Shown in pieces: positions 126 through 16,473 of a DNA stretch of 32,894 nucleotides. Below the pieces are notes generated by a model. The model saw only the letters and a list, made by a program, of their open reading frames with translations, ran no database searches and was not told the DNA's origin. Both the position numbers and the translations under genes were made by a program. This DNA comes from Thermovirga sp. (GTDB taxonomy: Bacteria > Synergistota > Synergistia > Synergistales > Thermovirgaceae): positions 1 through 32,894 of the forward strand of contig NZ_JACDOB010000017.1 in assembly GCF_017656375.1 (NCBI RefSeq). Reading direction: 5' to 3'. Each line of letters starts with the position of its first letter. Position 1 is the first letter of the stretch.

Positions 126-1313
126 TTAGACTTCTTTTAGGGCAGAATCAAGGTCTTCAATAAGGTCTTTTACATTTTCGATCCCTACAGAGTAGCGAAT
201 CAGTGTTTCTGGTATCCCCAGGGCCTTCCTTTCTTCTGCTGAACATTCCACATGACTTGTTGTAGCAGGAACTCCAGCTATGGTCTCAACGGCTCCCAAA
301 TTGGCGGCTTTGTGTGCTAGTTTGAGTCGGGGAAGGAATTTTTTTACGGTCTCAAAAGAATTTCCTTTGAGGGTAAAGCTTAACATTCCGCCATAACCTC
401 TCATTTGCTTTTTGGCTATGTCATGACCCTCATGAAATTCAAGCCCTGGATAGAAAACCTGTTCAACTTTTGGGTGTCTTGATAGAAAGCTAGCTATCTC
501 CATAGCATTTCTGTTTTGCCTTTTTACCCTCAATTCCAGGGTTTTTATTCCTCTAAGTAAAAGGTAGGCAGACATTGGGTGCAATGTGGCTCCTATTATT
601 TCTTTGTAATGAAATATTTTGCTGATCAATTCTTTTTTGCCGCAGACTATGCCTCCCAAAGCATCTGCGTGGCCACCAAGGTATTTTGTAGCACTGTGTA
701 TGACCAAATCAGCTCCCAGTGCAATGGGATTTTGGTTTATTGGCGTAGCGAAAGTGTTGTCACATGCGACGATAGCCCCTTTAGCTTTGGCTTTGTGTGC
801 AAGTCTCTTTATGTCTACTATTTTCATAGTGGGATTTGTGGGAGTTTCTAGGTAGAGCAGGTCACACCCTTTCTCAATCTCATTTTCGATTTGTTCAAAA
901 TCAGTGGTAGGGCATAATACGGCTTCCAACCCTGATTTTGGGAAAAATTCCATAAAAATTTTGCTGGTCCCGCCGTAGGTGTCTCTCAGGCTGACTACTT
1001 TTTGCCCTTTAGATAAAAGGCCAAAAAGTACACCGCTTATAGCTCCCATGCCCGTGGAGAAACTTGTTGCTGCTTCGGCCCCTTCAAGAATCCTAACTTT
1101 TTCTTCCAGGGCATCTACAGTTGGATTGGTATTTCTGCTGTAGATGTGGCCCTTTTTAATTCCCAGAGCAGCTTTAAGCCACTCATCCACGTCCTGATAC
1201 CCAAAGGAGACGCTGTGAACCACTGGTATTTGGGTTGGTTCCCCATGTGTTGCCTGTTTTTCTCCTCCCCACACAGATAGAGTTCCCATATCCCATAGTT
1301 TTTCCTTTTCCAT
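126..1313 (-). CDS. Cystathionine gamma-synthase family PLP enzyme
   Basis: This 395-residue protein belongs to the Cys/Met-metabolism PLP family (fold type I), which catalyses gamma-replacement or gamma-elimination on homoserine esters, cystathionine or methionine. The PLP lysine is K210 in SATKYLGGH, the pyridine-nitrogen aspartate is D185 in ACDNTFATP, and the phosphate-binding Y58 and R60 are in the HIYSRNTNPT block. The length is normal. In the YGGTS segment a glycine (G115) stands where methionine gamma-lyases carry their catalytic cysteine, which argues against methionine gamma-lyase. Cystathionine gamma-synthase, cystathionine gamma-lyase and O-acylhomoserine sulfhydrylase cannot be separated from sequence alone. 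The start is an ATG preceded by GGGAGGGATGA at good spacing. The gene lies downstream of the opine dehydrogenase gene on the same strand, but 197 bases and a hairpin separate them, so cotranscription is unproven. Confidence 0.88.
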   Translation of the reverse strand: MEKEKLWDMGTLSVWGGEKQATHGEPTQIPVVHSVSFGYQDVDEWLKAALGIKKGHIYSRNTNPTVDALEEKVRILEGAEAATSFSTGMGAISGVLFGLLSKGQKVVSLRDTYGGTSKIFMEFFPKSGLEAVLCPTTDFEQIENEIEKGCDLLYLETPTNPTMKIVDIKRLAHKAKAKGAIVACDNTFATPINQNPIALGADLVIHSATKYLGGHADALGGIVCGKKELISKIFHYKEIIGATLHPMSAYLLLRGIKTLELRVKRQNRNAMEIASFLSRHPKVEQVFYPGLEFHEGHDIAKKQMRGYGGMLSFTLKGNSFETVKKFLPRLKLAHKAANLGAVETIAGVPATTSHVECSAEERKALGIPETLIRYSVGIENVKDLIEDLDSALKEV

Positions 1314-1510: not shown

Positions 1511-2596
1511 TTAGGAAGTCAATTCTATAATCTCTGAAATAGAAAGGTTCTCGATGCCCAAGGTTTCTAGAGTAGTGCCTGAGGCGAGATAATCCTCGTC
1601 GTGTAGAAAGGATGCAAGTTTGACTACCATCTCTGCAATAGGAAGATCTAAGCCAGCCTTCTTAGTCAAAAGTAGTATAGGAACTATGACGCCAGGTACG
1701 TCTTCGGTGAGATATCTACCATATACACTTTGTCCAACTAGGTCCTTATAGGGGGATTCATTGCTATTTACATATTCGTATATGGTCTTAGTATCGTTGT
1801 TGCCGTAGTACATTTTTAGTTGAGATAGGCAATCTTGAAGGTTTAGGCCTAACTTTTTGCCAGCTATTATTCTCTCTTCGTCCAGCTTATGCATTTTTTC
1901 GGAGATTATCGGAGTGATGCCGTCCATGTAATGGCGAAATGTATTTCCGTTTTTCTCTATCTCGCCATAGTTAAGAAGGACAGGGAATGGATGGAGAGTG
2001 TAGTTAATGTTGTCAAAGTCGATCTCTAGAAGGTTTTTAGCAGGTATGTATTTCACATATCCATCAAAAATGTCGTTCATCACTTTGAGAATTTCATCGT
2101 TCTTACTGTTCGGCGAGGTTCCAATCTTCATGCAGAATTTTTTCTTGTATATCATTACCTTATTGTAGGTGTCTATCCTGCAGGCATACGGCATTGAGGC
2201 TGTTTCAGAGATAGTTATATTTTTGTGTATGCCAGCTTCCTTCATCATTTTCTTGAGCCTCAGGCCACCGAAATTACCGGGAACAATTACAATGTTTTGT
2301 CCATCTTCCAGATGGGGTATCATCTTTTTGAAAATTGGTTCATGGGCAAACGCAGGAACCACTACCAAGATAAAGTTTGCATCCTTAACGGCCTCAGCTA
2401 TATCCATGGTAGCTCCAAGAAGTTTGCCCCCTACATTTATATCGCCTTCAAGGAACATTTTCTTTTCTTCTCTTATTTTTTTGAAGTCTTCTGTTTCCTC
2501 CAGAGGTTCCCACATTATTACAGGATAATTTTTTGCAGCAATTTGGGCGCACCAAGCTCGTGCTCCGTTTCCACTACCCAAAACAGCGAATTTCAA
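1511..2596 (-). CDS. Opine dehydrogenase family protein 1 (NAD/NADP octopine/nopaline dehydrogenase)
   Basis: This 361-residue protein has an N-terminal Rossmann fold (VLGSGNGARAW, residues 5-15) and the helical octopine-dehydrogenase C-terminal domain. Family members make or oxidise N-(carboxyalkyl)amino acids with NAD(P)H, joining or splitting an amino acid and a 2-oxo acid. H202 in the LHPFPVLLN motif falls at the position of the catalytic histidine described for Arthrobacter opine dehydrogenase. The VPGNFGG loop and the ETASMPYACR segment are also family-like. The gene lies downstream of the TRAP binding protein but is separated from it by a terminator (2661-2699), and a copy of the divergent operator half-site (2636-2645) lies about 40 bases before its ATG. 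A second, divergent paralogue sits in the TRAP operon. The substrate is unknown; catabolic oxidation of an imported opine-like compound is an inference from context. Confidence 0.85.
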   Translation of the reverse strand: MKFAVLGSGNGARAWCAQIAAKNYPVIMWEPLEETEDFKKIREEKKMFLEGDINVGGKLLGATMDIAEAVKDANFILVVVPAFAHEPIFKKMIPHLEDGQNIVIVPGNFGGLRLKKMMKEAGIHKNITISETASMPYACRIDTYNKVMIYKKKFCMKIGTSPNSKNDEILKVMNDIFDGYVKYIPAKNLLEIDFDNINYTLHPFPVLLNYGEIEKNGNTFRHYMDGITPIISEKMHKLDEERIIAGKKLGLNLQDCLSQLKMYYGNNDTKTIYEYVNSNESPYKDLVGQSVYGRYLTEDVPGVIVPILLLTKKAGLDLPIAEMVVKLASFLHDEDYLASGTTLETLGIENLSISEIIELTS

Positions 2597-2635
2597 GATA
2601 AATGTCCCCCTTCCTCGAGTTAAATACTATGATTC

Positions 2636-2645
2636 TAATATCCTA
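2636..2645. promoter_or_regulatory. Possible operator half-site upstream of opine dehydrogenase 1
   Basis: The 10-mer TAATATCCTA is identical to one arm of the perfect palindrome at 6810-6830 in the dctQ/GntR divergent region. It lies between the dctP terminator and the ATG at 2596. The second arm is absent here. A 10-mer match could be chance, but the position is suggestive. Confidence 0.35.
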
Positions 2646-2660
2646 CAAATAATAAAGGTC

Positions 2661-2699
2661 AAAAATACTTCCCTGAGAAAATGTTTTCCCAGGGAAGTA
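2661..2699 (-). terminator. Rho-independent terminator after dctP
   Basis: A 10-bp perfect stem, TACTTCCCTG (2666-2675) with CAGGGAAGTA (2690-2699), has a 14-nt loop that can itself pair (GAAAA with TTTTC). On the minus strand it is followed by TTTTT (2665 to 2661). It begins 7 bases beyond the dctP stop, so it should end or attenuate the dctQ-dctM-odh2-dctP transcript before odh1. Confidence 0.85.
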
Positions 2700-2706
2700 A
2701 ACGTGC

Positions 2707-3711
2707 TTAATTGTTGATATTGTTAAGAACGTTATCTGCCCACTCCTCGCCAAGATCTTTCTTGATTTCTGGCCATACTTCTGCTCTGACTTTCTTGGCG
2801 ATGTTGTTTAGCTCTTCATCGGTTAGTGGAACGATAGTGATGCCGTAATCGGCGAGACGCTTTTCGTTAGCGGCTTGATCCTTCTCTGCCTGAACCATTC
2901 TTCTGGCCTCAAATTCCTTTGCTGCATTGAGGACAACGTCCTGGAGATCTTTCGGAAGCTTATTGAAGGCTTCCATGTTCATGTACAGGTACCACTGCTC
3001 AAAGTGGGTATTGGCCGGGATGTAGTACTTTATAACATCTCTAAAATTGGCATAATAGCCCTCAGCTCCAGAGCCGATTATGCCGTCGACTATACCAGTT
3101 TGGATAGCGGTGAAGGCTTCAGAGAAAGGTATAGGTGTAGCTTGGTATCCAATAGCGTTGGCTAGAAGCTGGAAAGATTTCAGCGGAGGAACTCGAACCT
3201 TGATGCCTTTTTTGACGTTGGGGTCTCCTGGTGCTACAGGATCAGCTTTAAGGGCAATGCCTCCGAAGTAAACAGGATATGCTGCGAGGTACTTTATGTC
3301 CTGCTTGGCGAAGAGTTCGGCAGCAACATTCATTAGAGGGCTTCCAGTGGCATAAACTTTTTTCGCCTGTTCCCATGTTGCTACCATGTAGGGCAAGTTG
3401 AGAATTTGAATCCTTCTGTCGGCTGCAACACCAGGGGGTTGGCAAGCCATTTCTATGGCTCCCACGCTTATTCTTTCATGAACAACTGTGTAATCCCCCA
3501 ATTGGCTAGCAGGATATATTTCTATCTTTATTTGACCTTTTGAATCTTCAAAGACCTTATCTGCAAACCAATGTACATCTTTGTCAATAGCTGTTCCCTG
3601 AGGACGAACATGAGATAGTTTCCACACGTATTTCGGTGCAGCCAGTGCTGCTCCAGCAAATGTCCCAAGGATGAAGGCCAATGCTACAATTGCTAGTATA
3701 GCTTTTCTCAT
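2707..3711 (-). CDS. dctP: TRAP transporter substrate-binding protein (DctP family)
   Basis: This 334-residue periplasmic solute receptor has a signal peptide (MRKA, then a hydrophobic stretch to about residue 24, with cleavage after GAALA). The mature protein begins with the family KYVWKLSHVRPQGTAID segment. The KGIKVRVPP motif at about 169-175 provides R173, the conserved arginine that in DctP proteins binds the carboxylate of the ligand. FSEAFTAIQTGIVDG, a strongly conserved block, follows. The ligand is therefore probably an organic acid; in context perhaps an N-carboxyalkyl amino acid, which is inference. It is the last gene of a dctQ-dctM-odh2-dctP operon and has AAGGGGAG upstream of its ATG. 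The opine dehydrogenase gene between the permease and the receptor is an unusual arrangement. Confidence 0.93.
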   Translation of the reverse strand: MRKAILAIVALAFILGTFAGAALAAPKYVWKLSHVRPQGTAIDKDVHWFADKVFEDSKGQIKIEIYPASQLGDYTVVHERISVGAIEMACQPPGVAADRRIQILNLPYMVATWEQAKKVYATGSPLMNVAAELFAKQDIKYLAAYPVYFGGIALKADPVAPGDPNVKKGIKVRVPPLKSFQLLANAIGYQATPIPFSEAFTAIQTGIVDGIIGSGAEGYYANFRDVIKYYIPANTHFEQWYLYMNMEAFNKLPKDLQDVVLNAAKEFEARRMVQAEKDQAANEKRLADYGITIVPLTDEELNNIAKKVRAEVWPEIKKDLGEEWADNVLNNINN

Positions 3712-3758
3712 TTTACTTTCTCCCCTTTCTTTATCCCTTTGATTATTTCTTATTTCCT

Positions 3759-4856
3759 TCAGCGCCCATTTTCTAGGTATTCAATCAGATCTTTCACCTC
3801 CAATCCATCAAGTCCTAGATTTTTAAGGCTTCTTCCCGTTTTCCTGAATGGCTCTTCCATTAGAGCAGAGCACAGGGTTATGATGCTGTCGATTATGGGG
3901 GTTTCCACTTTTGCTGCTTTTGCAAGGTCTGCTATTGGTACTAACAAGTTGGGAATGTCCTCTGTAATGTATCTGTGACGCACCTCTTTGGGAGCATCAG
4001 AACCATGGCTTGCGTAAACGGGGTTTTTAGCTAGGAGTTCATATATAGTTTCTCCCTCCACCGGATAAACTGCCTTTATCCAGTCAATTGCTGAGATTAG
4101 GTTTAACCCGTAGGCCTTTCCTACTTGTAGCCTTTCTTTATCCATAAGCTCTTGCAGTTTGCCGACAGAAGGTGTCACACCATCGGTGTAAAAGCGGAAA
4201 TTTCCTCCTGTGGACTCTATCCGTCCCGCATTGAGCAGAACTGTAGTTGGATGGACTATCATGTTCATGTTGGAAAAGCCTATTTCAAGAACGTTTTTTG
4301 TTGGCTTTAAAGGGATGGGGAAGTAATCTTGTATTCTCTTTATGAGGTTGTCGGTTTCTTTCCCAGGTAAGGCTGAGATATTTACAGATTTTTTTACTCC
4401 CCAAACGTTGACTACCCCAGGTTCAATCGCCCTGCAGGCATAGGGGAGAGTATCTGTCTCCGCCAGGGTTATATTCAAAGAAGTCCTTTTTTCTCCCATG
4501 TAGTGTGCGGCTTCTAGGCTGCCAAAATTTCCTGGGATAAGTATTACGCTGCTTCCTTCCTTTAATAAATGCGTTGCCTCTTTCAATATGGGCATCTGTC
4601 CAAAAGAAGGGACTACAACATATACAATTTCAGTTCCTTCCAAAGCCTCTTTTATATCTGACGTTACTGCCTGGAGTTGGCCAAACCCCTCAATAGTGCC
4701 TGTTAGTTTGACTCCTCCAGCCTTTCGGATAGGAGCCAGCTTATTCGAAAACTGAGGTAATTCATAAAGCTTGACTGATTTGCCCATCATGGCTAGGTGC
4801 CCACTGAGAGCTTGGCCTCCATTACCTGCGCCTAAGACTGCTATTTGTTTTTCCAT
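3759..4856 (-). CDS. Opine dehydrogenase family protein 2, inside the TRAP operon
   Basis: This second member of the octopine/nopaline dehydrogenase family has 365 residues from the chosen start. It has the Rossmann motif VLGAGNGGQAL (7-17), IPGNFGSLEA, ETDTLPYACRA and the catalytic-type H202 in IVHPTTVLLN, at the same residue number as in its neighbour ending at 1511. The reading frame opens nine codons earlier with a GTG, but AAGGAGG lies 9 bases before the ATG at 4856, so that start is preferred. It is flanked by dctM (36 bases upstream) and dctP (47 bases downstream). Its motifs are clearly related to those of protein 1, but the overall sequence has diverged strongly, suggesting different substrates or opposite stereochemistry rather than a recent duplication. 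The substrate is not known. Confidence 0.85.
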   Translation of the reverse strand: MEKQIAVLGAGNGGQALSGHLAMMGKSVKLYELPQFSNKLAPIRKAGGVKLTGTIEGFGQLQAVTSDIKEALEGTEIVYVVVPSFGQMPILKEATHLLKEGSSVILIPGNFGSLEAAHYMGEKRTSLNITLAETDTLPYACRAIEPGVVNVWGVKKSVNISALPGKETDNLIKRIQDYFPIPLKPTKNVLEIGFSNMNMIVHPTTVLLNAGRIESTGGNFRFYTDGVTPSVGKLQELMDKERLQVGKAYGLNLISAIDWIKAVYPVEGETIYELLAKNPVYASHGSDAPKEVRHRYITEDIPNLLVPIADLAKAAKVETPIIDSIITLCSALMEEPFRKTGRSLKNLGLDGLEVKDLIEYLENGR

Positions 4857-4892
4857 TTTGAAATGCCTCCTTATTTTTCTCACGTTTCAGGC

Positions 4893-6194
4893 TTAAAGGA
4901 AGCCTAGAAGTTTAGGTAAGAATAACGAAAGGTCTGGCCAGAAAGACGTCAAGAACACAACAGGTACATAGCCCAGTAGGAGCAGGACCATCGCAGGCTT
5001 GACTATTTCCATAAACTCGACTTTTCCAATCCTCATGCCAAGATATAGGATGCTCGCGTATGGAGGGGTAACTCCTCCCATGGCAAGATTGACACCCATT
5101 ATTGCTGCGAACTGAATGGGGTGTATCCCTATAGCTTGAACAAGGGGTAAAAGCAAAGGTGCAATAAGAATTACGCCTGTGATGTCGTTTACTATCATGC
5201 CCACGAAGAACAACAAGATGTTAATCATCACTAGGAGTATTACTTTGTTTTGGGTTATATCGAAAATTACTTGTACCAGAGCTTGGGGAACCCTCAGCAT
5301 AACGTATGTCTGGCTTAACATCAGGCAAAAGAGAATCATTATGAGTATGGCTCCAACGGATGTAGCGGAGTTCCAAGCTATTTCGTAAAAGTTCTTGAGA
5401 GTAAGGCCTTTATATATGAAAAAGCCCACAGGTATGGAGTAAATGACGGCTACTGCTGCAGCTTCTGTCGGTGTCATAATGCCCCCATATATTCCCCCAA
5501 GGATTATAAAAGGCATCATTAAAGCAGGAAGAGCAAGGCGAGTCCTTCTTTTGATTTCGTTCCATTTTTCTTTTGGAGGTAGTTTGGGCTCTAGCTTCAA
5601 GTCGAATTTTCTTGACCATATAATGTTTATGAGAGCGAAGAGGAAAGTTATCAAAAGGCCTGGCCCTACTGTCGCTAGAAAACATGCGAGTATAGAGGTT
5701 TCAGTAACCCAACCGTAAACTATCATGACCACACTAGGAGGAATTAGTAAGCCTAGAATTGAAGAATCGGTTACAAGGGCGGTCGCATACCCTCTAGGAT
5801 ATCCTTCTTGCTCCATTCGGGGAATCAATATGGGGCCAGTTGCCGCGACGCCTGTGAAGCCACTGCCAGATATTGCTCCAATTATAGCGCAACTTACAGA
5901 AGCTACTACTCCCAGGCCACCTCTCATTCTCCCTACAAAAACGTTGACAAAATCTAGAAGGTATTTAGCGATACCGCTTTCACTCATAAGAGTTCCTGCA
6001 AAGATAAAAAGTGGCACACAAAGAAGAACGGAGTTTGAAATTTGTCCAAGCCCCCATAGCAACATGCCCTTCATAGTTGCTCCACCCATAATGCTCATAA
6101 CCATTAAGCCTCCGCCGAAACAAAAAGGGAGAGGGACTCCCAATGTTAGGAATGCCACTACAACTAGAAGGGAAACTATTACAGTGAACATCAT
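4893..6194 (-). CDS. dctM: TRAP transporter large permease (DctM)
   Basis: This 433-residue integral membrane protein is of the usual length for TRAP large subunits, with about 12 hydrophobic segments. Recognisable family blocks are the N-terminal LGVPLPFCFGGG, VSCAIIGAISGSGFTGVAATGPILIPRM (near 100-125), IPPSVVMIVYGWVTETSI, GGIYGGIMTPTEAAAVAV near 235-250 and GGVTPPYASILYLG near the C-terminus. With DctQ it forms the Na+-coupled membrane complex that receives ligand from DctP. Its ATG overlaps the dctQ stop by 4 bases (ATGA), showing translational coupling. AAAGGAGAA precedes the paired ATG ATG start. Downstream lies opine dehydrogenase 2. Confidence 0.95.
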   Translation of the reverse strand: MMFTVIVSLLVVVAFLTLGVPLPFCFGGGLMVMSIMGGATMKGMLLWGLGQISNSVLLCVPLFIFAGTLMSESGIAKYLLDFVNVFVGRMRGGLGVVASVSCAIIGAISGSGFTGVAATGPILIPRMEQEGYPRGYATALVTDSSILGLLIPPSVVMIVYGWVTETSILACFLATVGPGLLITFLFALINIIWSRKFDLKLEPKLPPKEKWNEIKRRTRLALPALMMPFIILGGIYGGIMTPTEAAAVAVIYSIPVGFFIYKGLTLKNFYEIAWNSATSVGAILIMILFCLMLSQTYVMLRVPQALVQVIFDITQNKVILLVMINILLFFVGMIVNDITGVILIAPLLLPLVQAIGIHPIQFAAIMGVNLAMGGVTPPYASILYLGMRIGKVEFMEIVKPAMVLLLLGYVPVVFLTSFWPDLSLFLPKLLGFL

Positions 6195-6718
6195 GATAGG
6201 ATTCTCCTTTCAGATGATTGTGCTTTCTTGAAGAGATCAAAATTGTGGATGAGTTCTAGGAACGTGTAAAAAGAAATTACAACGAGAGCCATAAATACCA
6301 TAGCGTCAGCGTATATGGTAGGTATGTAGAGCGTAGGGCTTACTTTGTCTACCCTCATGGAGTATTTGAGGAAATCCCATCCCCAATAGCTTAACCAAAG
6401 TGAAACTATCAAAGAAATTATTGATGCTATGGAACGGACTAGGTAGATGGTCTTCTCTTTTTTTAGGAAAACTTCTAAAACTCTCGCTACTATTTGACTT
6501 CTTTCAAGGGATGCGTTCATAGCTCCTATGAAGTAGAGCCATATAGATGGAAAGAGCAATAGTTCTTCAATTCCCATCAAGGGAGCTTTGAAGACATAAC
6601 GTAAAACGACTTGAATAAAGACCATAACAGCCACGGCAACCATCAAGAAAGTTAATAAAGCGCGTTGGGCTTTCTCTACCCAACTAAGGAAACCGGAATA
6701 CTCAGTGTTACCCAACAA
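6191..6718 (-). CDS. dctQ: TRAP transporter small permease (DctQ)
   Basis: This 175-residue protein has four predicted membrane segments (about 20-40, 50-70, 92-113 and 130-155), typical of the DctQ small subunit. The GIEELLLFPSIWLYFIGAM stretch resembles the conserved E-E-hydrophobic core of the family. It is the first gene of the TRAP operon and overlaps dctM by 4 bases. The start is a TTG preceded by AGGGGGG at 6 bases; no in-frame ATG fits the ribosome-binding site. The promoter must lie in the intergenic region shared with the divergent GntR gene, where a perfect palindrome (6810-6830) is a candidate operator. Confidence 0.9.
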   Translation of the reverse strand: MLGNTEYSGFLSWVEKAQRALLTFLMVAVAVMVFIQVVLRYVFKAPLMGIEELLLFPSIWLYFIGAMNASLERSQIVARVLEVFLKKEKTIYLVRSIASIISLIVSLWLSYWGWDFLKYSMRVDKVSPTLYIPTIYADAMVFMALVVISFYTFLELIHNFDLFKKAQSSERRILS

Positions 6719-6809: not shown

Positions 6810-6830
6810 AATATCCTAATGTAGGATATT
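6810..6830. promoter_or_regulatory. Perfect palindrome, likely operator of the TRAP/GntR divergent promoters
   Basis: AATATCCTA (6810-6818) and its exact complement TAGGATATT (6822-6830) flank a 3-nt centre, ATG. This short, symmetrical layout matches how dimeric GntR/FadR-family regulators bind. The site lies between dctQ (start 6718) and the regulator (start 6976), and one arm recurs upstream of odh1 (2636-2645). Binding by the adjacent GntR protein is inference. Confidence 0.6.
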
Positions 6831-6903: not shown

Positions 6904-6975
6904 TGATTAATTTGAGTTCTTTCATTATTTTGAGTCTAGGATTTTTAAATTGTATATATTGGAGGAGTGATAACA

Positions 6976-7692
6976 TTGTTTAAACCTGCTGAGAGGTCCA
7001 CCCTTTACAAAGAAGTAACGGAGCAGATGCTTTTGGCTATAAAAAATGGGGTGTGGAAGGTGGGGGATAAAATCCCCAGTGAAATGGAACTTGCTGAAAA
7101 GTTTCAGGTGGGCAGGAATTGCATAAGGGAAGCGACAAAATCTTTAGCTGTGTCGGGTATTCTGGAGGCGCGACCTGGACAAGGAACCTTTGTTTCTCCT
7201 GTAGCTTTGAGAAAGATTATGGCTTATGAACTTTTCGATTACATGAATGAAGAAAGGGCCTGGATAGAGTTGATGCAAGTCAGGGCAGCGTTGGAGGGGG
7301 ATTTGGCCTATTTGGCTGCTGAGAGAGCGACCCCTGAAGACATTAAAAAATTGGAAGAGATAATAGCAAGAAGCGTTAAACAGAATGGCAAATATCATCC
7401 GTTGGACCAGGAACACTTATTGGTGCATTCTGATTTTCATGAAGCAATAGCCGAGATAGCAGGCAATAATTTTGCTCTGAAGCTTTTAAAGTCTATCAAG
7501 TCGGAAATAAATGAACATCGTAAAAAGTACTGGGCATTTGACGAGAAAGTTTGGGAGAAGATGATAAGAGCCCACAAGCAAATTGTGGAATACATAGCGA
7601 ACAGAGAACCAGAGAAGGCAAGGCATCTTATGAGAAAACACCTAATGGAGAGTATAGAGGATTACAAAAAACTAAAGGAGAATTCAAAGTAA
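6976..7692 (+). CDS. GntR family transcriptional regulator, FadR/FCD subfamily
   Basis: This protein has 238 residues from the chosen start. The N-terminal winged helix carries the GntR signature (VGDKIPSEMELAEKFQVGRNCIREATKSLAVSGI, then the wing RPGQGTFV). The C-terminal all-helical FCD ligand domain has its metal-binding-type histidines in HSDFHEAIAEIAGN, RAHKQIV and LMRKHL. FCD proteins usually sense carboxylic acids or sugar acids. The gene is divergent from the TRAP/opine-dehydrogenase operon, so it is the obvious local regulator. The frame opens with a GTG at 6967 directly abutting GGAGGA, which is too close. The TTG at 6976 lies 10 bases from GGAGG and gives the natural N-terminus MFKPAERSTLYKEV, so it is preferred. 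Confidence 0.92.
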   Translation: MFKPAERSTLYKEVTEQMLLAIKNGVWKVGDKIPSEMELAEKFQVGRNCIREATKSLAVSGILEARPGQGTFVSPVALRKIMAYELFDYMNEERAWIELMQVRAALEGDLAYLAAERATPEDIKKLEEIIARSVKQNGKYHPLDQEHLLVHSDFHEAIAEIAGNNFALKLLKSIKSEINEHRKKYWAFDEKVWEKMIRAHKQIVEYIANREPEKARHLMRKHLMESIEDYKKLKENSK

Positions 7693-7715: not shown

Positions 7716-7734
7716 CCTTAAAAAATATAACTTG

Positions 7735-7740
7735 TATAAT
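7735..7740 (+). promoter_or_regulatory. Candidate -10 box of the V/A-ATPase operon
   Basis: This is a perfect TATAAT, 36 bases before the first ATPase start codon. No good -35 lies upstream (TTCCCT at 7713 with 16-bp spacing is weak), which would suit an activator-dependent promoter or a chance AT-rich match. Confidence 0.4.
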
Positions 7741-7776
7741 AAATTAAAGGTGATGCTTTTTGTGGAGGTAAATGGT

Positions 7777-8403
7777 TTGGCTGTTAAGGTTGTACCAACA
7801 AGAGGTAATTTATTTAAGCTCGTTCGTAAGTTGAGAATGGCTCGCAAAGGGCATGGGCTTTTGGAGCAGAAGCGCCAAATTTTAATGTTGGAATTGAGTT
7901 CAACAATAGCCAAAGCCCGAAAAGTTCAAAAAGAAGTAGCGGAAGTGTTTGAAGATGCGTATTCGGCTTTACAACGAGCGAATATATCCTTGGGGGTTGA
8001 GACAGTAGAGGAGATAGCCCATTCCATACCAGAGGAACAGCGCTTCGTAATACGTCTGAGGTCGGTCATGGGAGTGGAAATCCCTGAGGTGGACCCCTTA
8101 GAGCCCAAAACTACCCCTGCATATTCCTTTTTGGAAACATCCAGCTCGATGGATGAAGCTTATCTTGCCTTTTGTAGAGTTCGATCAATGCTTTCACAAC
8201 TTGCCGAGGTGGAAAACGCCGTTTACAGGCTTGCTGTGCAGGTTCGCCGTACCAACAGGAGAGTCAACGCTCTAGAAAAAGTCGTCATTCCAGCGACGAT
8301 GGCTTCAATTGCTGAAATCTCGTCTGTGCTGGAAGAAAGTGAGCGCGAAGATTTTGTCAGGATGAAGACAGCAAAGAATCAAAAGACTAAGAAGGAGGGA
8401 TGA
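7777..8403 (+). CDS. atpD: V/A-type ATPase subunit D (central rotor shaft)
   Basis: This 208-residue protein has the family's hallmark N-terminus, beginning (TTG start as Met) M-AVKVVPTRGNLFKLVRKLRMARKGHGLLEQKRQIL, and the C-terminal NALEKVVIPATMASIAEISSVLEESEREDFVRMKTAKNQK region. It forms the antiparallel coiled-coil shaft rotating inside A3B3. The frame is open for 15 more codons upstream, but GGAGG at 7764-7768 is 8 bases from the TTG at 7777, and homologues start exactly there. In most bacterial and archaeal operons D follows A and B; here it is the first gene. The stop overlaps the first in-frame start codon of the next gene. Confidence 0.93.
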   Translation: MAVKVVPTRGNLFKLVRKLRMARKGHGLLEQKRQILMLELSSTIAKARKVQKEVAEVFEDAYSALQRANISLGVETVEEIAHSIPEEQRFVIRLRSVMGVEIPEVDPLEPKTTPAYSFLETSSSMDEAYLAFCRVRSMLSQLAEVENAVYRLAVQVRRTNRRVNALEKVVIPATMASIAEISSVLEESEREDFVRMKTAKNQKTKKEG

Positions 8404-8405
8404 GT

Positions 8406-8753
8406 ATGCCCTCATTACAGGAATCTTTAGCCGTCCTACTTGGCGCTGAGAGCGAAGGTGTCAGGGAGGTAGAAGAAGCCAAAACAGAGGCAAAGAGGAT
8501 CCTCGCCTCGACTAGTGAAAAAATAGCAAAGGAAAGACAGCGTCGGCTGCAGGCAGCCAAGGAAAGGGCAAGGGCTGTCCTTGAAGGAGCGAGAGCCGCT
8601 GCCGATGAAGAAGCCAGACAAATTGCCGAGATGGGCAAAGCAGAGAGGGACAGAATTCAACGACGATTTGAGGAAGTAGTGGAATCAGTTGTAGATGCTC
8701 TTGTTGAAGAACATATAGCAAACTTATTAAAGGGTAAGGGTATAAATAAATGA
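8406..8753 (+). CDS. V/A-type ATPase subunit G/H (peripheral stalk)
   Basis: This 115-residue protein is almost entirely a charged, alanine-rich amphipathic helix (about residues 15-95, rich in E, K, A and R), as expected for the stalk subunit that pairs with subunit E as a right-handed coiled coil. Sequence identity in this family is low, so position and composition carry the call. An ATG at 8400 overlaps the atpD stop but sits one base from GGAGG. The ATG at 8406 has 7-base spacing and is preferred. The stop overlaps the next gene's ATG by 4 bases (ATGA), indicating coupling to subunit C. Confidence 0.85.
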   Translation: MPSLQESLAVLLGAESEGVREVEEAKTEAKRILASTSEKIAKERQRRLQAAKERARAVLEGARAAADEEARQIAEMGKAERDRIQRRFEEVVESVVDALVEEHIANLLKGKGINK

Positions 8754-9844
8754 TATCCTTTTTCTCTTTAGGAACACGTGTTGTTGCAGGGAGCCGTTCT
8801 CATGTTTTGTACGCCAGACTCCTTAAAGATGAGGAAATGTGGCGAATACTAATGTGTGATGATGTGCATGAGATAGTGGATCAACTGGCTAGGATTCCAG
8901 GTTATAGCGATGCTGTGAAGTTTATTCGATCTGAGGAGATTAGCAGAGTCCAATTAGAAACACGCCTTAAATTAATACCTCTTCAGCAAACCCAAATTTT
9001 CCTCAAGCTAATGCGCGGAAAATATAGATATTTTCTGTTGTCGTGGATAGGTAGATATGAGGCTGCCACACTTAAGAGGATTCTTAGATATATTTTGACG
9101 AAACATGGTAATAGAGAAAATATCAGGAAGTGGTTGCTTTCATTGGGAGATACTACTATACCCTTTGAGTTACTTATTTCAAGCAGAGACTTTACTGATG
9201 CTTTTGAAGCCCTTAAGGGGACTATTTATGAAAAACCGTTGAAGGAACCTTTGAAACGGCTGGCATCTGGAGAAGAAAATTTGTTTTACGCCGAAACGGC
9301 AATTGACATTATGACTGTGATGAATCTTTTTAAGGCTGCTAAGGCACTGCCTGGTTTAAATCGCTATAGGGTACTTAAAATAATAGGCTTGTATGTAGAC
9401 CTATTAAATGTGATGTGGATATACAGAGGCATAAGATACTACGATATGACCCCAGAACAGCGTTTGGCTCGCCTTTTGCCATGTCATTACAAGTTCAGTA
9501 GAAGTGTTTTGAGGTCTTTGGCTAGGGCAGTTGATATCAACGAATTTTGGGATTTACTTAGATCCACCGTTTACGGCAGTTTGTTTGAGGACAGTGCCTT
9601 AGAAAGTGAGATTATCTTTGAGAGGGATTGCAGAAGAGCCGTTCGAAAAGCTGCCCACCAAGTTTTTAGGGCTGGCAAGCCAGATTTTTCGTCTGTAATA
9701 GCCTATTTGACTTTATTGGAATACGAGATAAATGACCTCTGCACCATCATAGAGGATGTGCGTTATGATTATGATAGACGTCAAGCTGCTTTATATCTGG
9801 TAAGGCCTTTAATACCGGAAGGTGAAATACGATGGCCGTTGTAA
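8750..9844 (+). CDS. atpC: V/A-type ATPase subunit C (AC39-type rotor adaptor)
   Basis: This 364-residue protein is of the AC39/subunit C family, the funnel-shaped helical protein that joins the central shaft (D-F) to the membrane c-ring. Typical features are the N-terminal VVAGSRSHVLYARLLKDEEMWRIL segment and a helical protein with a three-fold repeat architecture, including LLNVMWIYRGIRYYDMTPEQRLARLLP and ending in LYLVRPLI. Length is close to the Thermus protein. It is translationally coupled to the gene before it (ATGA) and overlaps the start of subunit I by 13 bases. It has no obvious strong Shine-Dalgarno of its own (AAGGG is nearest), in keeping with coupling. Confidence 0.9.
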   Translation: MISFFSLGTRVVAGSRSHVLYARLLKDEEMWRILMCDDVHEIVDQLARIPGYSDAVKFIRSEEISRVQLETRLKLIPLQQTQIFLKLMRGKYRYFLLSWIGRYEAATLKRILRYILTKHGNRENIRKWLLSLGDTTIPFELLISSRDFTDAFEALKGTIYEKPLKEPLKRLASGEENLFYAETAIDIMTVMNLFKAAKALPGLNRYRVLKIIGLYVDLLNVMWIYRGIRYYDMTPEQRLARLLPCHYKFSRSVLRSLARAVDINEFWDLLRSTVYGSLFEDSALESEIIFERDCRRAVRKAAHQVFRAGKPDFSSVIAYLTLLEYEINDLCTIIEDVRYDYDRRQAALYLVRPLIPEGEIRWPL

Positions 9845-11796
9845 GAATGTTGGCCCTTACTCTTATAGGGCCCAAAAAAGAAATGGAGAAAGTTGCCAGT
9901 TTGATGGTTCTTTCAGGAGGGTTTCAGCCTTTACCTCTAGATTTGCTTTTAAAGGATAGAACCATTCGTTCAAAAATAACGTCTGTTTCTGAGAATCCTT
10001 ATGATGAACTTCTTGTAAAGCTTGCTTCAATTTGGCAAGCTGCTGGAGAAAAACCCCCTCTTCCTATGCCCATTCAAGTGTCGCCTGATTTTAGCCTTAA
10101 GATAGCATCCATGCAGATCAACAAGATAGTCCGTCGTTTGGAGTTGTGGGCTTCCAAAAAAGAGGAACTTAGCGAAAAGCTAGAAAGGCTAGAGGCTATA
10201 TTGATCTTGATGAGGGCACTGAAAGAAAGAAGCCTAAATTTGGAGGACCTCTTCGACACTAAATATTTGGTCCCTATTTTCGCAAAGGCCAGTGACGACA
10301 ACTTCCGAAGGTTGGTGGATTCATCAGAAGAAGCGCCATTATTAATAGAGCCGTTGCTTTCAAGAGGAGGTAATACATGGTTTTTAGGTCTTACTGCACC
10401 AGGCTATGAAGAAGGAGCCCAAAAACTTTTGGAAAGCCTTTATTGTAAAAAATTTTCTCTGAAAGATTTGCAGCAGGAGTTAAGGGGTAATGTAGAAGAA
10501 TCTATTTCCAAAAGGATAGAAAATCTAAAAAGAGCCATAAGTGGGCTTGAAAAAGCTTCATCTATGCTCCTTGAGCAAAACAGGGAATACTTCATTAACC
10601 TTTATTCCACCATTTATACAATGCAGAGAGTTTATGAATTGTGTCGTGGCAGGGGGGAGTTGAAAGACCTGTACATTCTATCGGGATGGATTCCAGAGGA
10701 TATATTGGAAAGAGTGCGTCCAGATTTAGAGAGGCTTGCACCTCAGACAGTTATTCATGTGGAGGAAGTAAAGGCAATACCATATTCGGGGATAAAAGTC
10801 CCTACCTTGCTTAAGAATTTACCTTTTGTAAGAGCCTTTCAAGATGTTGTAGCCCTTTATAGCTTGCCTAGCTATGGAGAAATGGACCCTTCTTTTTTGG
10901 TAGCGATAACCTTTTGCCTGTTCTTTGGATTCATGTTTGGAGATGTAGGTCATGGAGCGATGTTGTTTGTGATAGCAGCAATCCTTCAAAAAAAGAAAGT
11001 CCTTTCCCGTTCCATGGGGATCGTACTTAAATCAGCGGGAGTCTCTTCAGCTCTTTTTGGCTTCCTGTATGGAAGCATGTTCGGTATAGAAGGAATAATA
11101 CATCCGCTGTGGATTTCCCCTATGGAGGATATGGGAGACCTTTTGGGGTTTTCCATAGGCATTGGGGTATCTATTTTGACTTTAGGAATGGTCTTGAACA
11201 TGATAATTCAATATAGGGCAAAAGATTTTGGAAGACTCCTTTTTGATGGTCGAGGGCTAGCAGGTGCCATCCTGTATTTATCTCTTGCTGCTATGAGCTA
11301 TGCAACCTTCAAAGGAATCCCGTTGCCCGGGCCTAAATGGGTCTATTGGTCTATTCCAATACTTTTGTTTTTAGTCATTTTGTTTAGAGATATCTTGGCA
11401 CGGGTTATCTTGAGAAAGAGGGAAAAAGAAGAGGAAAAGCTAGGGCTTTATGTTTTCGAGGTTTTTCACAACTTATTAAGTTTTTTAAGTAATACGGCAT
11501 CCTTTGTTCGTCTTGCTGCCTTTGCTTTAAACCATGTGGGTTTGTCTTTGGCGGTAATGATGCTTTCGGATATGGTTAGAGACCTGCCAGGTGGTTTGAT
11601 TTTAAAGGGCACCTTGCTGGTCTTAGGGAATGTTTTGATTGTGGGTTTGGAAGGGTTAATTGTTTTCATACAGACGTTGCGTCTTGAATATTACGAGTTT
11701 TTTGGGAAATTCTACCGTGGTGGCGGCAAAGCCTTCAGACCAGTTACTTTTGAGGGGAAGATGCCATTTCGCAAATCAAGGTCAGTTATCAAATAG
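9832..11796 (+). CDS. atpI: V/A-type ATPase subunit I (a-type membrane subunit)
   Basis: This 654-residue protein has a soluble N-terminal half (about 1-350, with coiled-coil regions near 90-130 and 215-250) that binds the peripheral stalks, and a C-terminal membrane half with about eight segments starting at FLVAITFCLFFGFMFGDVGHG. The ion-channel arginines are present: R560 in SNTASFVRLAAFALNH and R617 in IQTLRLEYYEFFGKFY, with Q614 just before the latter. All match conserved positions of the family. The start is an ATG with AGGTG upstream, overlapping subunit C by 13 bases. Subunit K follows after 23 bases. Confidence 0.95.
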   Translation: MAVVRMLALTLIGPKKEMEKVASLMVLSGGFQPLPLDLLLKDRTIRSKITSVSENPYDELLVKLASIWQAAGEKPPLPMPIQVSPDFSLKIASMQINKIVRRLELWASKKEELSEKLERLEAILILMRALKERSLNLEDLFDTKYLVPIFAKASDDNFRRLVDSSEEAPLLIEPLLSRGGNTWFLGLTAPGYEEGAQKLLESLYCKKFSLKDLQQELRGNVEESISKRIENLKRAISGLEKASSMLLEQNREYFINLYSTIYTMQRVYELCRGRGELKDLYILSGWIPEDILERVRPDLERLAPQTVIHVEEVKAIPYSGIKVPTLLKNLPFVRAFQDVVALYSLPSYGEMDPSFLVAITFCLFFGFMFGDVGHGAMLFVIAAILQKKKVLSRSMGIVLKSAGVSSALFGFLYGSMFGIEGIIHPLWISPMEDMGDLLGFSIGIGVSILTLGMVLNMIIQYRAKDFGRLLFDGRGLAGAILYLSLAAMSYATFKGIPLPGPKWVYWSIPILLFLVILFRDILARVILRKREKEEEKLGLYVFEVFHNLLSFLSNTASFVRLAAFALNHVGLSLAVMMLSDMVRDLPGGLILKGTLLVLGNVLIVGLEGLIVFIQTLRLEYYEFFGKFYRGGGKAFRPVTFEGKMPFRKSRSVIK

Positions 11797-11819
11797 ACTA
11801 AATGAGGGGGAATGTTCAG

Positions 11820-12230
11820 ATGTTCGGCCTTTTGGTGTTGGCTTCAGCCTCTATTGCAACCGTTTGTTTGGGTCTTTACTTGAGTAAGGCTGTGTTGAGC
11901 AAGGGAAGATCTATTTTGCGATTTGTATTGCTAGGCCTGTTTGCTTCTCTCGTTTTAGGGGGTATTTTAACAATTTCCCCCGGAGTATCGTTGGCTGCCG
12001 AAGGGGTTTTGTCTTCTGGTGCTGGAATGGGTTTCATAGGAGCCGCGGTTGCAGCCGGTCTTGCTTGTATTGGCGCAGGGATAGCTGTTGCTGTAGTTGG
12101 AGCTGCGGCAATGGGGGTTATAGGTGAGAAGCCTGAGATGTTGGGTACTACCCTTATATATCTAGGGTTGGCCGAAGGTATTGCTATATATGGGGTCATA
12201 GTTGCCTTGCTTATCTTGGGCAAAATATGA
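11820..12230 (+). CDS. atpK: V/A-type ATPase subunit K (c-ring proteolipid)
   Basis: This 136-residue protein has four hydrophobic segments. Residues 68-135 are one standard c-type hairpin with the ion-binding E119 in YLGLAEGIAIYG. The first 60 residues form two additional hydrophobic segments without a carboxylate, ending in SPGVSLAAEG, which resembles a signal-peptidase site. Aligned without gaps to Na+-type c subunits, V90 replaces the Na+-ligating glutamine and G120-I121 replace the Ser/Thr ligands, so protons are the more likely coupling ion (inference). The ATG at 11820 is chosen because AGGGGG lies 9 bases upstream. An earlier ATG at 11802 would add six residues and has no ribosome-binding site. 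Confidence 0.9.
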   Translation: MFGLLVLASASIATVCLGLYLSKAVLSKGRSILRFVLLGLFASLVLGGILTISPGVSLAAEGVLSSGAGMGFIGAAVAAGLACIGAGIAVAVVGAAAMGVIGEKPEMLGTTLIYLGLAEGIAIYGVIVALLILGKI

Positions 12231-12245
12231 GGGTTTGATATAAAA

Positions 12246-12557
12246 ATGCGTGCCTTTTTAATAAGCGATAATTTGGATAGCCTGGTGGGAATGCGCCTTG
12301 CTGGTGTAGAAGGTTGCATTGTAAGAAACGCAAACGAAACGAGCCTCGCCATTGAAGAAGCTTTGAAAGATACAGAAATAGGTATCCTCATCTTTACTGA
12401 AAAAACGGCATCGTGGGCTTCAAAGCAAGTGAAGTTCCTAAGGGAGCAAGGTCATCTCCCCCTAATCGTTGAGATCCCGGATCGTCACGGCATGAAAAGG
12501 GAAGCAGATTTCCTTACTTCCTACGTGCGGGAGGCTTTAGGAGTGAATATAGAATGA
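12246..12557 (+). CDS. atpF: V/A-type ATPase subunit F
   Basis: This 103-residue protein is a compact alpha/beta protein that binds the central shaft D subunit. The opening MRAFLISDNLDSLVGMRLAGVEG and the later IGILIFTEKTASW segment match the family pattern (an N-terminal strand-helix with a G-hydrophobic-G turn, then a switch strand). Length is normal. It follows subunit K by 15 bases, with GAGGG about 12 bases before the ATG. Its stop overlaps the subunit E start by 4 bases (ATGA). Confidence 0.9.
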   Translation: MRAFLISDNLDSLVGMRLAGVEGCIVRNANETSLAIEEALKDTEIGILIFTEKTASWASKQVKFLREQGHLPLIVEIPDRHGMKREADFLTSYVREALGVNIE

Positions 12558-13168
12558 GCGAAGAGATAAAGGAAAAACTAAATAGCTTAAGAGAACTCCT
12601 CTTGATGGAGGCCGAACAAGAGAAAACTAAGATCCTCGACATGGCTAAAAAAGAAGCGGAGGCCATGGAAAAAGAAGAGATGGAGAAGATATCGAGAGAG
12701 GAAGCTCTGATCCTTAAGGAAGCTAATGAAAGGGCTGAATCCCTTAGGCGACGACAGGTTATGGCTGCGGAAAGAGAGAGGAGAACGGAGCTTCTTCGGT
12801 TACAAAATAAATTGATTAAAGAGGCCGTTAATATGCTGGAGGACAGGTTGAATCAGCTTAAAGATGATTCTCGATATCCCCAGATACTCGTTGCGCTGGT
12901 AGAGGAAGGTGCTTCTGTGTTGAAAGACGTGGCTATTATAAAAATAAGGTTGTCAGCCCAGGATGCAAGTTTAGGCGAGTATGTGGCTCAGGAAGCCCAA
13001 AGGAGACTTAAGGATCTCAAAGTTACTTTTGACAATGACCCTGCTCCTATATTTGGAGGCGTTTGGATCTACTCAAGCGATGGGAAACGTTTCGTAGGAG
13101 CAGATTGGAAAACTAGGGCTCAGGAATTAGCTACATCATTGGCTGATAGATTGTTGCCCCTTCTTTAA
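12554..13168 (+). CDS. atpE: V/A-type ATPase subunit E (peripheral stalk)
   Basis: This 204-residue protein has a long charged helix at residues 10-110 (KTKILDMAKKEAEAMEK and following, KEANERAESLRRRQ, AERERRTELL) that would pair with the G/H subunit, and a C-terminal globular domain with the FGGVWIYSSDGKRFVGADWKTR region typical of E. Length matches the family. It overlaps the F gene by 4 bases and is separated from A by 33 bases. Together the small helical protein at 8406 and this one account for the peripheral stalks. Confidence 0.9.
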   Translation: MSEEIKEKLNSLRELLLMEAEQEKTKILDMAKKEAEAMEKEEMEKISREEALILKEANERAESLRRRQVMAAERERRTELLRLQNKLIKEAVNMLEDRLNQLKDDSRYPQILVALVEEGASVLKDVAIIKIRLSAQDASLGEYVAQEAQRRLKDLKVTFDNDPAPIFGGVWIYSSDGKRFVGADWKTRAQELATSLADRLLPLL

Positions 13169-13201
13169 ACATGTAGAGGCTAGATAAGGGAGGATGTGGG
13201 T

Positions 13202-14983
13202 TTGAATAGTTTGGGCACGATTGTGAGTGTTAACGGTCCCGTAGTTAAGGCCAGAGCTATGCGAGCATTTGGAATGAGAGAGATGGTTCGTGTAGGGGAA
13301 CTCAACCTATGGGGCGAGATTATAAGAATGGAAGGAGACGAGGCCTTAATACAGGTTTTTGAGGATACTCAAGGGTTGCGTATTGGTGAGCCTGTAAGAG
13401 GCACAGGAAGGCCTCTTTCCGTCGAATTGGGACCGGGGCTTGTAGGGAAAATTTTTGATGGCATAGGGCGCCCTCTGGATGTTCTTTTGGAAGAGGAAGG
13501 GGCCATGCTCTCTCGTGGGGTTCAGGTGCCAATGCTTGATAGAAAGTCCTTGTGGACTTTTAAGCCATCTGTGAAGAAGGGGGACGCTGTTGCAGGAGGT
13601 ATGGTGCTCGGGAAAGTTCAGGAAACCCCGCTTCTGGAGCACAGAATACTGGTTCCTCCTTCAGTTGAAGGTGAGGTAATATATATACGTCAAGAGAGTG
13701 TAGTAACAGCCTCCGATGTTATAGCGAAAATCAAGGACGTATATGGAAATATAGTTGACGTTCCAATAGTTCATGTTTGGCCTGTAAGAAAGGCCCGCCC
13801 TTATAGAGAAAGGCTCTTGCCTAATGAACCCTTGGTCACAGGACAACGGATCATAGATGGGCTTTTCCCGGTAGCCAGAGGAGGAGTTGCAGCTATTCCT
13901 GGTGGTTTCGGTACAGGAAAAACTGTAACCCAACATCAGCTTGCCAAATGGAGCGATGCCCATTTAGTCGTTTATATAGGCTGTGGAGAACGAGGAAATG
14001 AGATGACTCAAGTTTTGGAGGAGTTCCCTCAGTTAAATGACCCTCGTTCAGGTAGACCTCTTATGGAACGCACTATTCTTATAGCGAATACCTCAAATAT
14101 GCCGGTTGCTGCCCGGGAAGCTTCGATATATACAGGGATAACTATTGCTGAGTATTTCCGCGACATGGGATATCATGTTGCTCTCATGGCAGATTCAACG
14201 AGCCGTTGGGCAGAGGCACTTAGGGAAATATCAGGGCGGCTAGAGGAAGTGCCGGCTGAAGAGGGATTCCCCGCTTACCTGCCTACTCGTTTGGCAGAGT
14301 TTTATGAAAGGGCAGGGCGTGTTGTCACTTTGGGAGGCGATGAAGGAAGCATCACTATTATTGGAGCAGTATCTCCTCCTGGAGGGGATTTTACGGAGCC
14401 TGTCACGAGAAACACCAAGCGCTTCATAAGGTGCTTTTGGGCTTTGGACAAGAGTCTAGCTGGAGCTAGGCATTTTCCTGCAATTAATTGGCTTGAGTCT
14501 TACAGCGAGTATGCAAAAGAAGTGGAAGATTGGTTTTCAACTCAGGTAAATCCCAAATGGGGTGATTATAGAGACAAAGTAAGAGCGCTTTTGGCGGAGG
14601 ATGAAAAAATACAGCAGGTTATACGCCTTGTAGGAGAGGACGTATTGCCTGATGAACAGAAATTGGTAGCGTTTACTGCATTTTTGCTGAAAAATGGATA
14701 TCTTCAACAGAATGCATTCAGCGAAGATGCTTATTCTCCTCCAGAGAAGGGCTTTGCAATTTTGGAGATAATTCTTCATTTTTATGAGAAAGCCTCCGAG
14801 CTTGTGAAGCGAGGAGTTCCTCTTTCTCTTATAAGGGAAGGCAAGCCTGTACTTGAAATAGTCCATGTTAGGGAAAAATCGAAGGAAAATATCATGATGG
14901 AAATATCCGATTTAAAGAGAGAATTAGATGCCTTTTTGGAAAAAGTTGGAAGTGAAAGAAAGGCTACGAGAGGAAGGGTCTAA
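13202..14983 (+). CDS. atpA: V/A-type ATPase catalytic subunit A
   Basis: This 593-residue nucleotide-binding catalytic subunit begins with a beta-barrel ([16 protein letters not shown]), followed by the non-homologous bulge region typical of A subunits, then the P-loop GGFGTGKT at residues 234-241 (most relatives have GPFGSGKT), the GERGNEM block, and Walker B and [39 protein letters not shown]. The length is normal. The frame opens with GTG at 13196 only 2 bases after GGGAGG. The TTG at 13202, 8 bases from GGAGG, gives [12 protein letters not shown] and is preferred. Subunit B starts 2 bases after the stop. Confidence 0.97.
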
Positions 14984-14984
14984 T

Positions 14985-16358: not shown

Positions 16359-16390
16359 AAGAGGTGGCACTTCTATTTCTTGTATATAAA

Positions 16391-16419
16391 TTTACTTTAG
16401 TAGAGTGTAGGTGTATTAT
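16391..16419 (+). promoter_or_regulatory. Candidate promoter of the universal stress protein gene
   Basis: TTTACT (16391-16396), 17 bases and TATTAT (16414-16419) lie 55 bases upstream of the ATG at 16474, within a 115-base gap after atpB. Confidence 0.45.
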
Positions 16420-16473
16420 TGAGTTAACCTGGGATGTGTGATTTCTTGCGAGTGAAGGGCAGGGGGATTTGAT

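Follow-up and report, generated by a model that had tools for sequence, protein, structure and literature searches.

A TRAP transporter operon with two opine dehydrogenase-family enzymes in Thermovirga sp., a candidate route for uptake and cleavage of opine-type compounds

Gene content of the locus

The stretch of DNA analyzed here, referred to as the window, comprises positions 1-32,894 of contig NZ_JACDOB010000017.1 from Thermovirga sp. (assembly GCF_017656375.1). Its minus strand carries the genes dctQ-dctM-odh2-dctP-odh1, in which a tripartite ATP-independent periplasmic (TRAP) transporter is interleaved with two enzymes of the opine dehydrogenase (ODH) family, PF02317, while an FCD-type GntR regulator gene runs divergently on the plus strand. 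The reading that we favor, with moderate confidence, is that this operon imports an opine-type compound (two acids joined through one nitrogen) and cleaves it in an NAD+-dependent manner to an amino acid and a keto acid. The gene order and the divergent regulator had been proposed in an initial annotation made without database searches; every one of these features was found at the position given there, and Pfam models confirmed each assignment. The features are as follows.

6191-6718, minus strand: dctQ, small TRAP permease, 175 amino acids, TTG start (PF04290, 1.2e-15)
4893-6194, minus strand: dctM, large TRAP permease, 433 amino acids (PF06808, 1.9e-88; TIGR00786 above cut-off)
3759-4883, minus strand: odh2, opine dehydrogenase-family enzyme (PF02317, 2.3e-49)
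2707-3711, minus strand: dctP, TRAP substrate-binding protein with signal peptide (PF03480, 2.6e-41)
2666-2699, minus strand: stem-loop with T-run between dctP and odh1, 15 pairs, tail TTTTTGACCT
1511-2596, minus strand: odh1, second PF02317 enzyme, 361 amino acids, TTG start (3e-35)
6810-6830, unstranded: perfect palindrome AATATCCTA-ATG-TAGGATATT, candidate operator of the FCD regulator
6967-7692, plus strand: FCD-type GntR regulator, divergent from dctQ (PF00392, 2.6e-18; PF07729, 2e-25)

The dctQ and dctM genes overlap, 9 bp separate dctM from odh2, and 47 bp separate odh2 from dctP. The better start for odh2 is probably the ATG at 4856, which has an AGGAGG box upstream, yields a product of 365 amino acids and leaves a gap of 36 bp after dctM. 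The stem-loop ahead of odh1 looks terminator- or attenuator-like, although the region is not enriched in such structures relative to shuffled sequences. Attenuators are commonly placed 3' of binding-protein genes.

The two opine dehydrogenase-family enzymes

Both enzymes are full-length members of the octopine dehydrogenase family, as first annotated (Octopine_DH at 3e-35 for odh1 and 2e-49 for odh2), and they are divergent, with about 35% identity to each other and placement in separate clades. The top structure match by sequence for either is 1BG6, the N-[1-D-(carboxyl)ethyl]-L-norvaline dehydrogenase (CENDH, here ArODH), at 6.3e-52 for ODH1 and 2.8e-63 for ODH2; ODH1 is about 31% identical to it. 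The AlphaFold model of ODH1 has a mean predicted local distance difference test score (pLDDT) of 95.4, and its template modeling scores against 1BG6 are 0.88/0.91. A fold search with this model returned opine dehydrogenases as the top four matches, including 1BG6 and scallop octopine dehydrogenase, with ketopantoate reductases behind them. The window enzymes share with ArODH the fold, the His-Asp dyad, the Arg and an acidic residue at the NAD site. From this point on, ODH residues are numbered as in ArODH.

A Rossmann GxGxxG/A motif and the PF02317 helical domain are present, and the His202-Asp297 dyad and Arg292 are kept in ODH1 and ODH2. The catalytic-type His at residue 202 had been noted from the outset for both, and it holds for ODH2 when counted from the ATG. 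H202, R292 and D297 occur in practically all of the 95 ODHs compared. Arg292 corresponds to Arg324 of octopine dehydrogenase (OcDH), the NADH-sensing Arg (PMC2924402). Both window enzymes have E34 where ArODH carries an Asp by the NAD. Since hot-spring ODHs with Asn or Ser at position 34 mostly prefer NADPH (PMC10787698), NAD is the likely cofactor of both, judging from this residue.

Positions 111 and 198 switch ODH specificity, with A/N favoring Phe and R/G favoring Asp (PMC10787698). ODH1 and ODH2 are both N111/N198, a third type, with Asn111 in place of the Ala of ArODH. They belong to the same family as the measured hot-spring metagenome enzymes (PMC10787698) but to another clade. The active-site Trp (W258 in ArODH, W278 in OcDH) is kept in ODH2 and replaced by Gln in ODH1. 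For this reason we refer to ODH1 as an opine dehydrogenase-family enzyme rather than a proven opine dehydrogenase, and the two enzymes probably differ in specificity. Purifying selection acts on odh1 and dctP: comparison of this genome with its congener G001 gives dN/dS values of 0.026 (odh1) and 0.015 (dctP), the synonymous sites being close to saturation.

Importer, regulator and putative operator

With DctQ, DctM and an exported-type DctP all present, the importer is a DctP-type TRAP transporter. R173 of DctP is invariant in alignments and lies at the place of the carboxylate-binding Arg. The AlphaFold2 model of DctP (pLDDT 92) retrieved generic DctP matches only, at 20-25% identity, and gave no clue to the ligand. 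To illustrate, the isethionate-binding protein IseP (8T9T), like other DctPs, shares the fold and the carboxylate Arg with the window DctP, yet at about 25% identity its ligand is not transferable.

The regulator combines a GntR winged helix-turn-helix with an FCD domain, and the palindrome lies in the divergent promoter region, as is characteristic of FCD-type GntR proteins. This palindrome is the one such site in the window, where 0.04 would be expected, and its core, ATCCTA-N3-TAGGAT, has a single perfect copy in the genome. The core stands directly 5' of dctQ in seven genomes, namely in the window and in loci L064, L084, L081, L087, L038 and L050 (L and G numbers designate our loci and genomes), and with one mismatch before dctQ in L041 and L052. 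Across 188 whole Synergistota genomes only 13 copies occur, and seven of these immediately precede dctQ in loci of this kind; around two stray copies (G112, G149) there is neither a TRAP nor an ODH gene. We infer that the FCD protein binds the palindrome before dctQ.

Conservation of the layout in the Synergistota

PF02317 is present in 68 of the 188 Synergistota genomes, and about 90 loci were annotated with hidden Markov models (HMMs) made for this analysis. A genome survey of the gene order had been suggested in the initial annotation, and the order was found to recur in two further genera and probably in a third. The exact arrangement, divergent FCD gene included, is found in G071 (L084). 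In the case of G082 (L085/L131), the five genes occur in the same order and the contig stops before the FCD position, while G024 (L081 and L082) probably has the same layout across a contig break. Counting the genus of the window, the five-gene order is present in three genera, probably four. Reduced loci without odh2 also occur (L056, L087 and L088), and L038 has odh2 and dctP followed by the contig end. The ODH tree resolves odh1 and odh2 into two separate clades, and the pair is accordingly an old one, not a recent duplication.

Two variant loci were noted along the way. In the congener G001 (L064, 7876-9400), dctM breaks off some 80 codons in, and the gap that follows contains a reverse open reading frame (8096-9274) with a weak HTH_32 match; the gap is probably an insertion element. 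This locus represents a natural loss of the importer with dctP and odh1 intact. In a metagenome-assembled genome of Acetomicrobium hydrogeniformans (L074), two near-identical odh1 copies (224-1327 and 15334-16434) lie 15 kb apart and flank a TRAP operon of the kind that we termed type B, with a second dctQMP set just upstream (L087).

Linkage to transporters and recurrent partner genes

The arrangement is not a chance one: the Thermovirga genome has four PF02317 genes at three places, each next to a TRAP-type permease, against a total of 16 DctM-family permeases in 1.80 Mb. In the Synergistota as a whole, a TRAP permease lies within 5 kb of 39 of the 61 ODH genes that have complete 5-kb flanks; from the density of permeases, some 0.11-0.15 per ODH gene would be expected, and the 61 are not independent trials, coming as they do from related genomes.

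The most frequent enzyme partners in the sister loci are PF02423 genes, which 47 of 97 ODHs have within 5 kb and which the window locus lacks. PF02423 includes SbnB and also the strombine and tauropine dehydrogenases of sponges (PMC4575208). Other recurrent partners are serine dehydratase-like SDH_alpha proteins, GrdE/GrdB subunits, UxaA-type dehydratases and enolase-superfamily proteins. One sister locus lies in the Thermovirga genome itself (contig C7, L005, 8738-9838) and combines a TAXI-TRAP transporter, an ODH and a PF02423 protein whose best match is SbnB, with a score below the family cut-off. The ODH of this locus carries R111/G198, the signature of the measured hot-spring enzymes acting on Asp/Glu, and of the ODHs in this genome it is the one whose opine substrate is easiest to predict.

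DctPs of the same clade as that of the window are also linked to GrdE/GrdB-type genes, in L089 (7164-12556, G043), L006, L041, L044, L050, L096 and L099, and in such loci the GrdB reading frame ends at a probable selenocysteine UGA. The best match of GrdE in L006, L041 and L089 is sarcosine reductase, below the cut-off. A reductive route for N-substituted glycines is one possible meaning of this linkage.

Outside the Synergistota, most of the ODH2 relatives that were found (Halanaerobiales, Thermotogae, Thermoanaerobacterium) show no TRAP gene and lie beside a protein with a B12-binding domain. These ODHs are of the R111/G198 type and of another clade, and they neither support nor refute our reading of the window. 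In L149, L165 and L167 the ODH is followed, after a few bases or with an overlap, by a protein of about 545 amino acids in which only the N-terminal B12-binding domain is recognizable; the ODHs of these three loci have Asn at position 34, as in NADPH-preferring enzymes.

DctP relatives outside the Synergistota

A search for DctP relatives in a plasmid collection revealed a discrete group at 53-57% identity to the window protein, before a drop to 35%. The group includes members from Leisingera, Sulfitobacter, Oceanisphaera, Vibrio, Ciceribacter and Roseovarius, among others. Most of the proteobacterial operons have the order dctQMP-OdhB-OdhC-OdhA-RidA. Six records, two from Leisingera and one each from Oceanisphaera, Sulfitobacter, Ciceribacter and Vibrio (HMM evidence for L205 and L210), show dctQ-dctM-dctP with a DAO-family flavoprotein, a 2Fe-2S protein, an FAD/NAD(P) oxidoreductase and RidA, and the DctPs of these five genera are 54-57% identical to that of the window. 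Both the flavin opine dehydrogenase OdhABC and OoxAB/NoxAB have this three-subunit pattern (PMC4575208). The large subunit, OdhA, is 42-44% identical to OoxA-annotated proteins from plasmids of Agrobacterium and Rhizobium rhizogenes, and 50% identical to a protein on A. vitis pTiCG78.

In the DctP tree, the proteobacterial proteins and the window type are sisters (support 0.75) and belong to a clade with support 1.00, which also holds ODH-linked DctPs from P. litorale (Peptoclostridium) and Avidesulfovibrio. The P. litorale ODH has the ArODH signature, A111/N198/W258; ODH-TRAP linkage outside the Synergistota amounts to a few cases and is anecdotal. One importer clade is thus paired with two non-homologous opine dehydrogenase families. 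The simplest account would be one importer clade serving one substrate class, with the oxidizing enzyme swapped, NAD-dependent in anaerobes and flavin-dependent in aerobes. The same DctP type also lies on Roseovarius mucosus plasmid pSMR3-2 (L212, 9916-14907) beside OdhB/OdhA remnants, a D-amino-acid dehydrogenase-like protein, RidA, BhcB and BhcC, a gene set from which one might suspect that the products in this lineage are glyoxylate and glycine.

Proposed function and alternatives

The initial annotation had suggested a dedicated pathway for uptake and oxidation of N-(carboxyalkyl)amino acids, with two enzymes perhaps for different opines or stereoisomers. The conserved order and putative operator, the opine dehydrogenase-like structures and residues, the pairing of the DctP clade with an opine oxidase-type flavoenzyme, and the PF02423 and sarcosine reductase-like GrdEB partners give indirect support to uptake and oxidation, the pairing of the DctP clade, seen outside the window, being the strongest of them. 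The substrate, the direction of the reaction, the dedicated role and a split by opine or stereoisomer are predictions. The operon would be an inducible catabolic one whose substrate is a secondary-amine dicarboxylate, for example an N-(carboxyalkyl)amino acid. DctP would capture the opine anion outside the membrane and DctQM would import it with Na+ or H+, after which ODH2 and ODH1 would oxidize the C-N bond with NAD+ as the acceptor. The resulting imine would hydrolyze to an amino acid and a 2-oxo acid (pyruvate or similar), both usable by an amino-acid-fermenting host, with the NADH disposed of elsewhere. The FCD regulator, on the palindrome before dctQ, would respond to substrate or product. 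Given that the Trp of ODH2 is missing from ODH1, the two probably accept different amino-acid halves, a division of labor that may be the reason for having two enzymes.

Several observations weigh against this reading. The N111/N198 pocket is unlike both characterized kinds, the apolar A111/N198 and the acidic R111/G198, and we know of no N111/N198 member with a known activity. DctP has no close solved homolog, so that its ligand cannot be read from structure, and a close DctP (L089) is linked to GrdEB and to no ODH. The stem-loop splits dctP from odh1, so that odh1 may be only partly co-transcribed with the other genes. Congener G001, in which the insertion takes the place of most of dctM and the first part of odh2, can do without the pathway. 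The compared genomes are related and their counts overstate independence. Finally, the OdhABC family also has hydroxyproline, proline and glycine-type dehydrogenases (PMC4575208), and secondary-amine dicarboxylates are therefore favored as substrates rather than proven.

This last point also feeds a rather unlikely alternative, in which the transporter imports an ordinary or cyclic amino or hydroxy acid (D-hydroxyproline, 3-hydroxyaspartate or a D-amino acid, for example) and the PF02317 proteins are amino-acid or imine dehydrogenases. The D-amino-acid dehydrogenase-like protein, BhcB and BhcC beside the Roseovarius DctP would fit such a substrate, as would the serine dehydratase-like and alanine dehydrogenase-like partners in type B loci. 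However, type A loci have no serine dehydratase-like gene, and the structurally characterized relatives with the H202/D297/R292 set, which the window ODHs keep, make or split opines. That the enzymes instead run reductively, making opines to re-oxidize NADH in fermentation from a keto or amino acid partner brought in by the transporter, we consider improbable. Marine invertebrates do make opines in this way, ODH reactions are reversible, the host is anaerobic and E34 suggests use of NAD(H). Nevertheless, an importer with its own FCD regulator and a conserved palindrome suggests substrate-induced catabolism, no exporter was seen, and in aerobic Proteobacteria the partners of the DctP clade are oxidative-type flavin dehydrogenases.

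Bacterial ODHs are best known from the staphylopine, pseudopaline and yersinopine clusters (PMC7438024), which raises the idea that the window ODHs build an opine metallophore for the transporter to retrieve. This is very improbable and was rejected: in contrast to the metallophore (cnt) clusters, the operon has no nicotianamine synthase-like gene, exporter or metal uptake gene beside it, and the fold match to metallophore ODHs shows no more than 12-14% identity. A variant compatible with opine uptake and cleavage, and one that we hold to be possible but doubtful, is that a single ODH works with the transporter while the other is a passenger for a separate reaction. Loci with odh1 only, the lost odh2 of the congener, the lone odh2 seen in L038 and the stem-loop ahead of odh1 are all in keeping with it; the recurrence of odh2-dctP-odh1 across genera and the catalytic residues kept in both enzymes speak against it.

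Beyond the window, we are evenly divided on whether opine-type uptake and cleavage extends to an undescribed, widespread TRAP-fed route for N-(carboxyalkyl)amino acids, in which one DctP clade serves interchangeable C-N-cleaving modules. These would be paired NAD-dependent ODHs, an ODH with a PF02423 protein, GrdEB selenoprotein reductases and OdhABC flavoenzymes, in the Synergistota, some Bacillota and Desulfobacterota, and marine Proteobacteria.

Relation to known systems

Opine catabolism as such is already known. Searches of the open-licence literature found no paper on 'opine dehydrogenase' together with 'TRAP transporter', nor on 'TRAP transporter' together with 'opine oxidase', in agreement with the remark in the initial annotation that no pathway of this layout had been described. 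To our knowledge, crown-gall plasmids and a small number of soil bacteria account for nearly all that has been learned about the genes of opine catabolism. Marine invertebrates are further producers of opines, and heating of food gives rise to related N-carboxyalkyl amino acids. Arthrobacter sp. 1C, the source of ArODH, was isolated as an opine user and could live on an opine as its only source of carbon (PMC4575208). The Ti-plasmid opine operons consist of an ABC importer (occ) and a flavin opine oxidase, and the window system, with its TRAP importer and NAD-type enzymes, is not of that kind. OdhABC and the Ti-plasmid OoxAB/NoxAB perform the same class of chemistry (PMC4575208) but are flavoenzymes, non-homologous to the window ODHs and not NAD-dependent.

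The importer-enzyme pairing points to an overlooked recycling route for opine-type compounds, and a conserved module of this sort in anaerobes and marine bacteria would make opine turnover testable. An opine-type ligand, if true, would be a new ligand class for TRAP transporters. The two N111/N198 clades also make available enzymes that may be useful for reductive amination.

Neighboring genes

One further gene, not remarked on in the initial annotation, lies about 200 bp past odh1, with a GC-rich hairpin in the gap.

126-1313, minus strand: Cys/Met-metabolism pyridoxal phosphate (PLP) enzyme, PRK08249 family (NF006097, 657 bits against a cut-off of 600)

It adjoins odh1 in both genomes of the genus, the neighbor in G001 being 87% identical, and stands beside odh1 in no other locus of the window layout. 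As a core part of the system it was rejected, close homologs elsewhere being on another contig than the ODHs or far away; it is possibly a downstream member added at the genus level. On the other side, after the FCD gene, a V/A-type ATPase operon occupies 7732-16358 on the plus strand and encodes, among others, subunits D, E, A and B.

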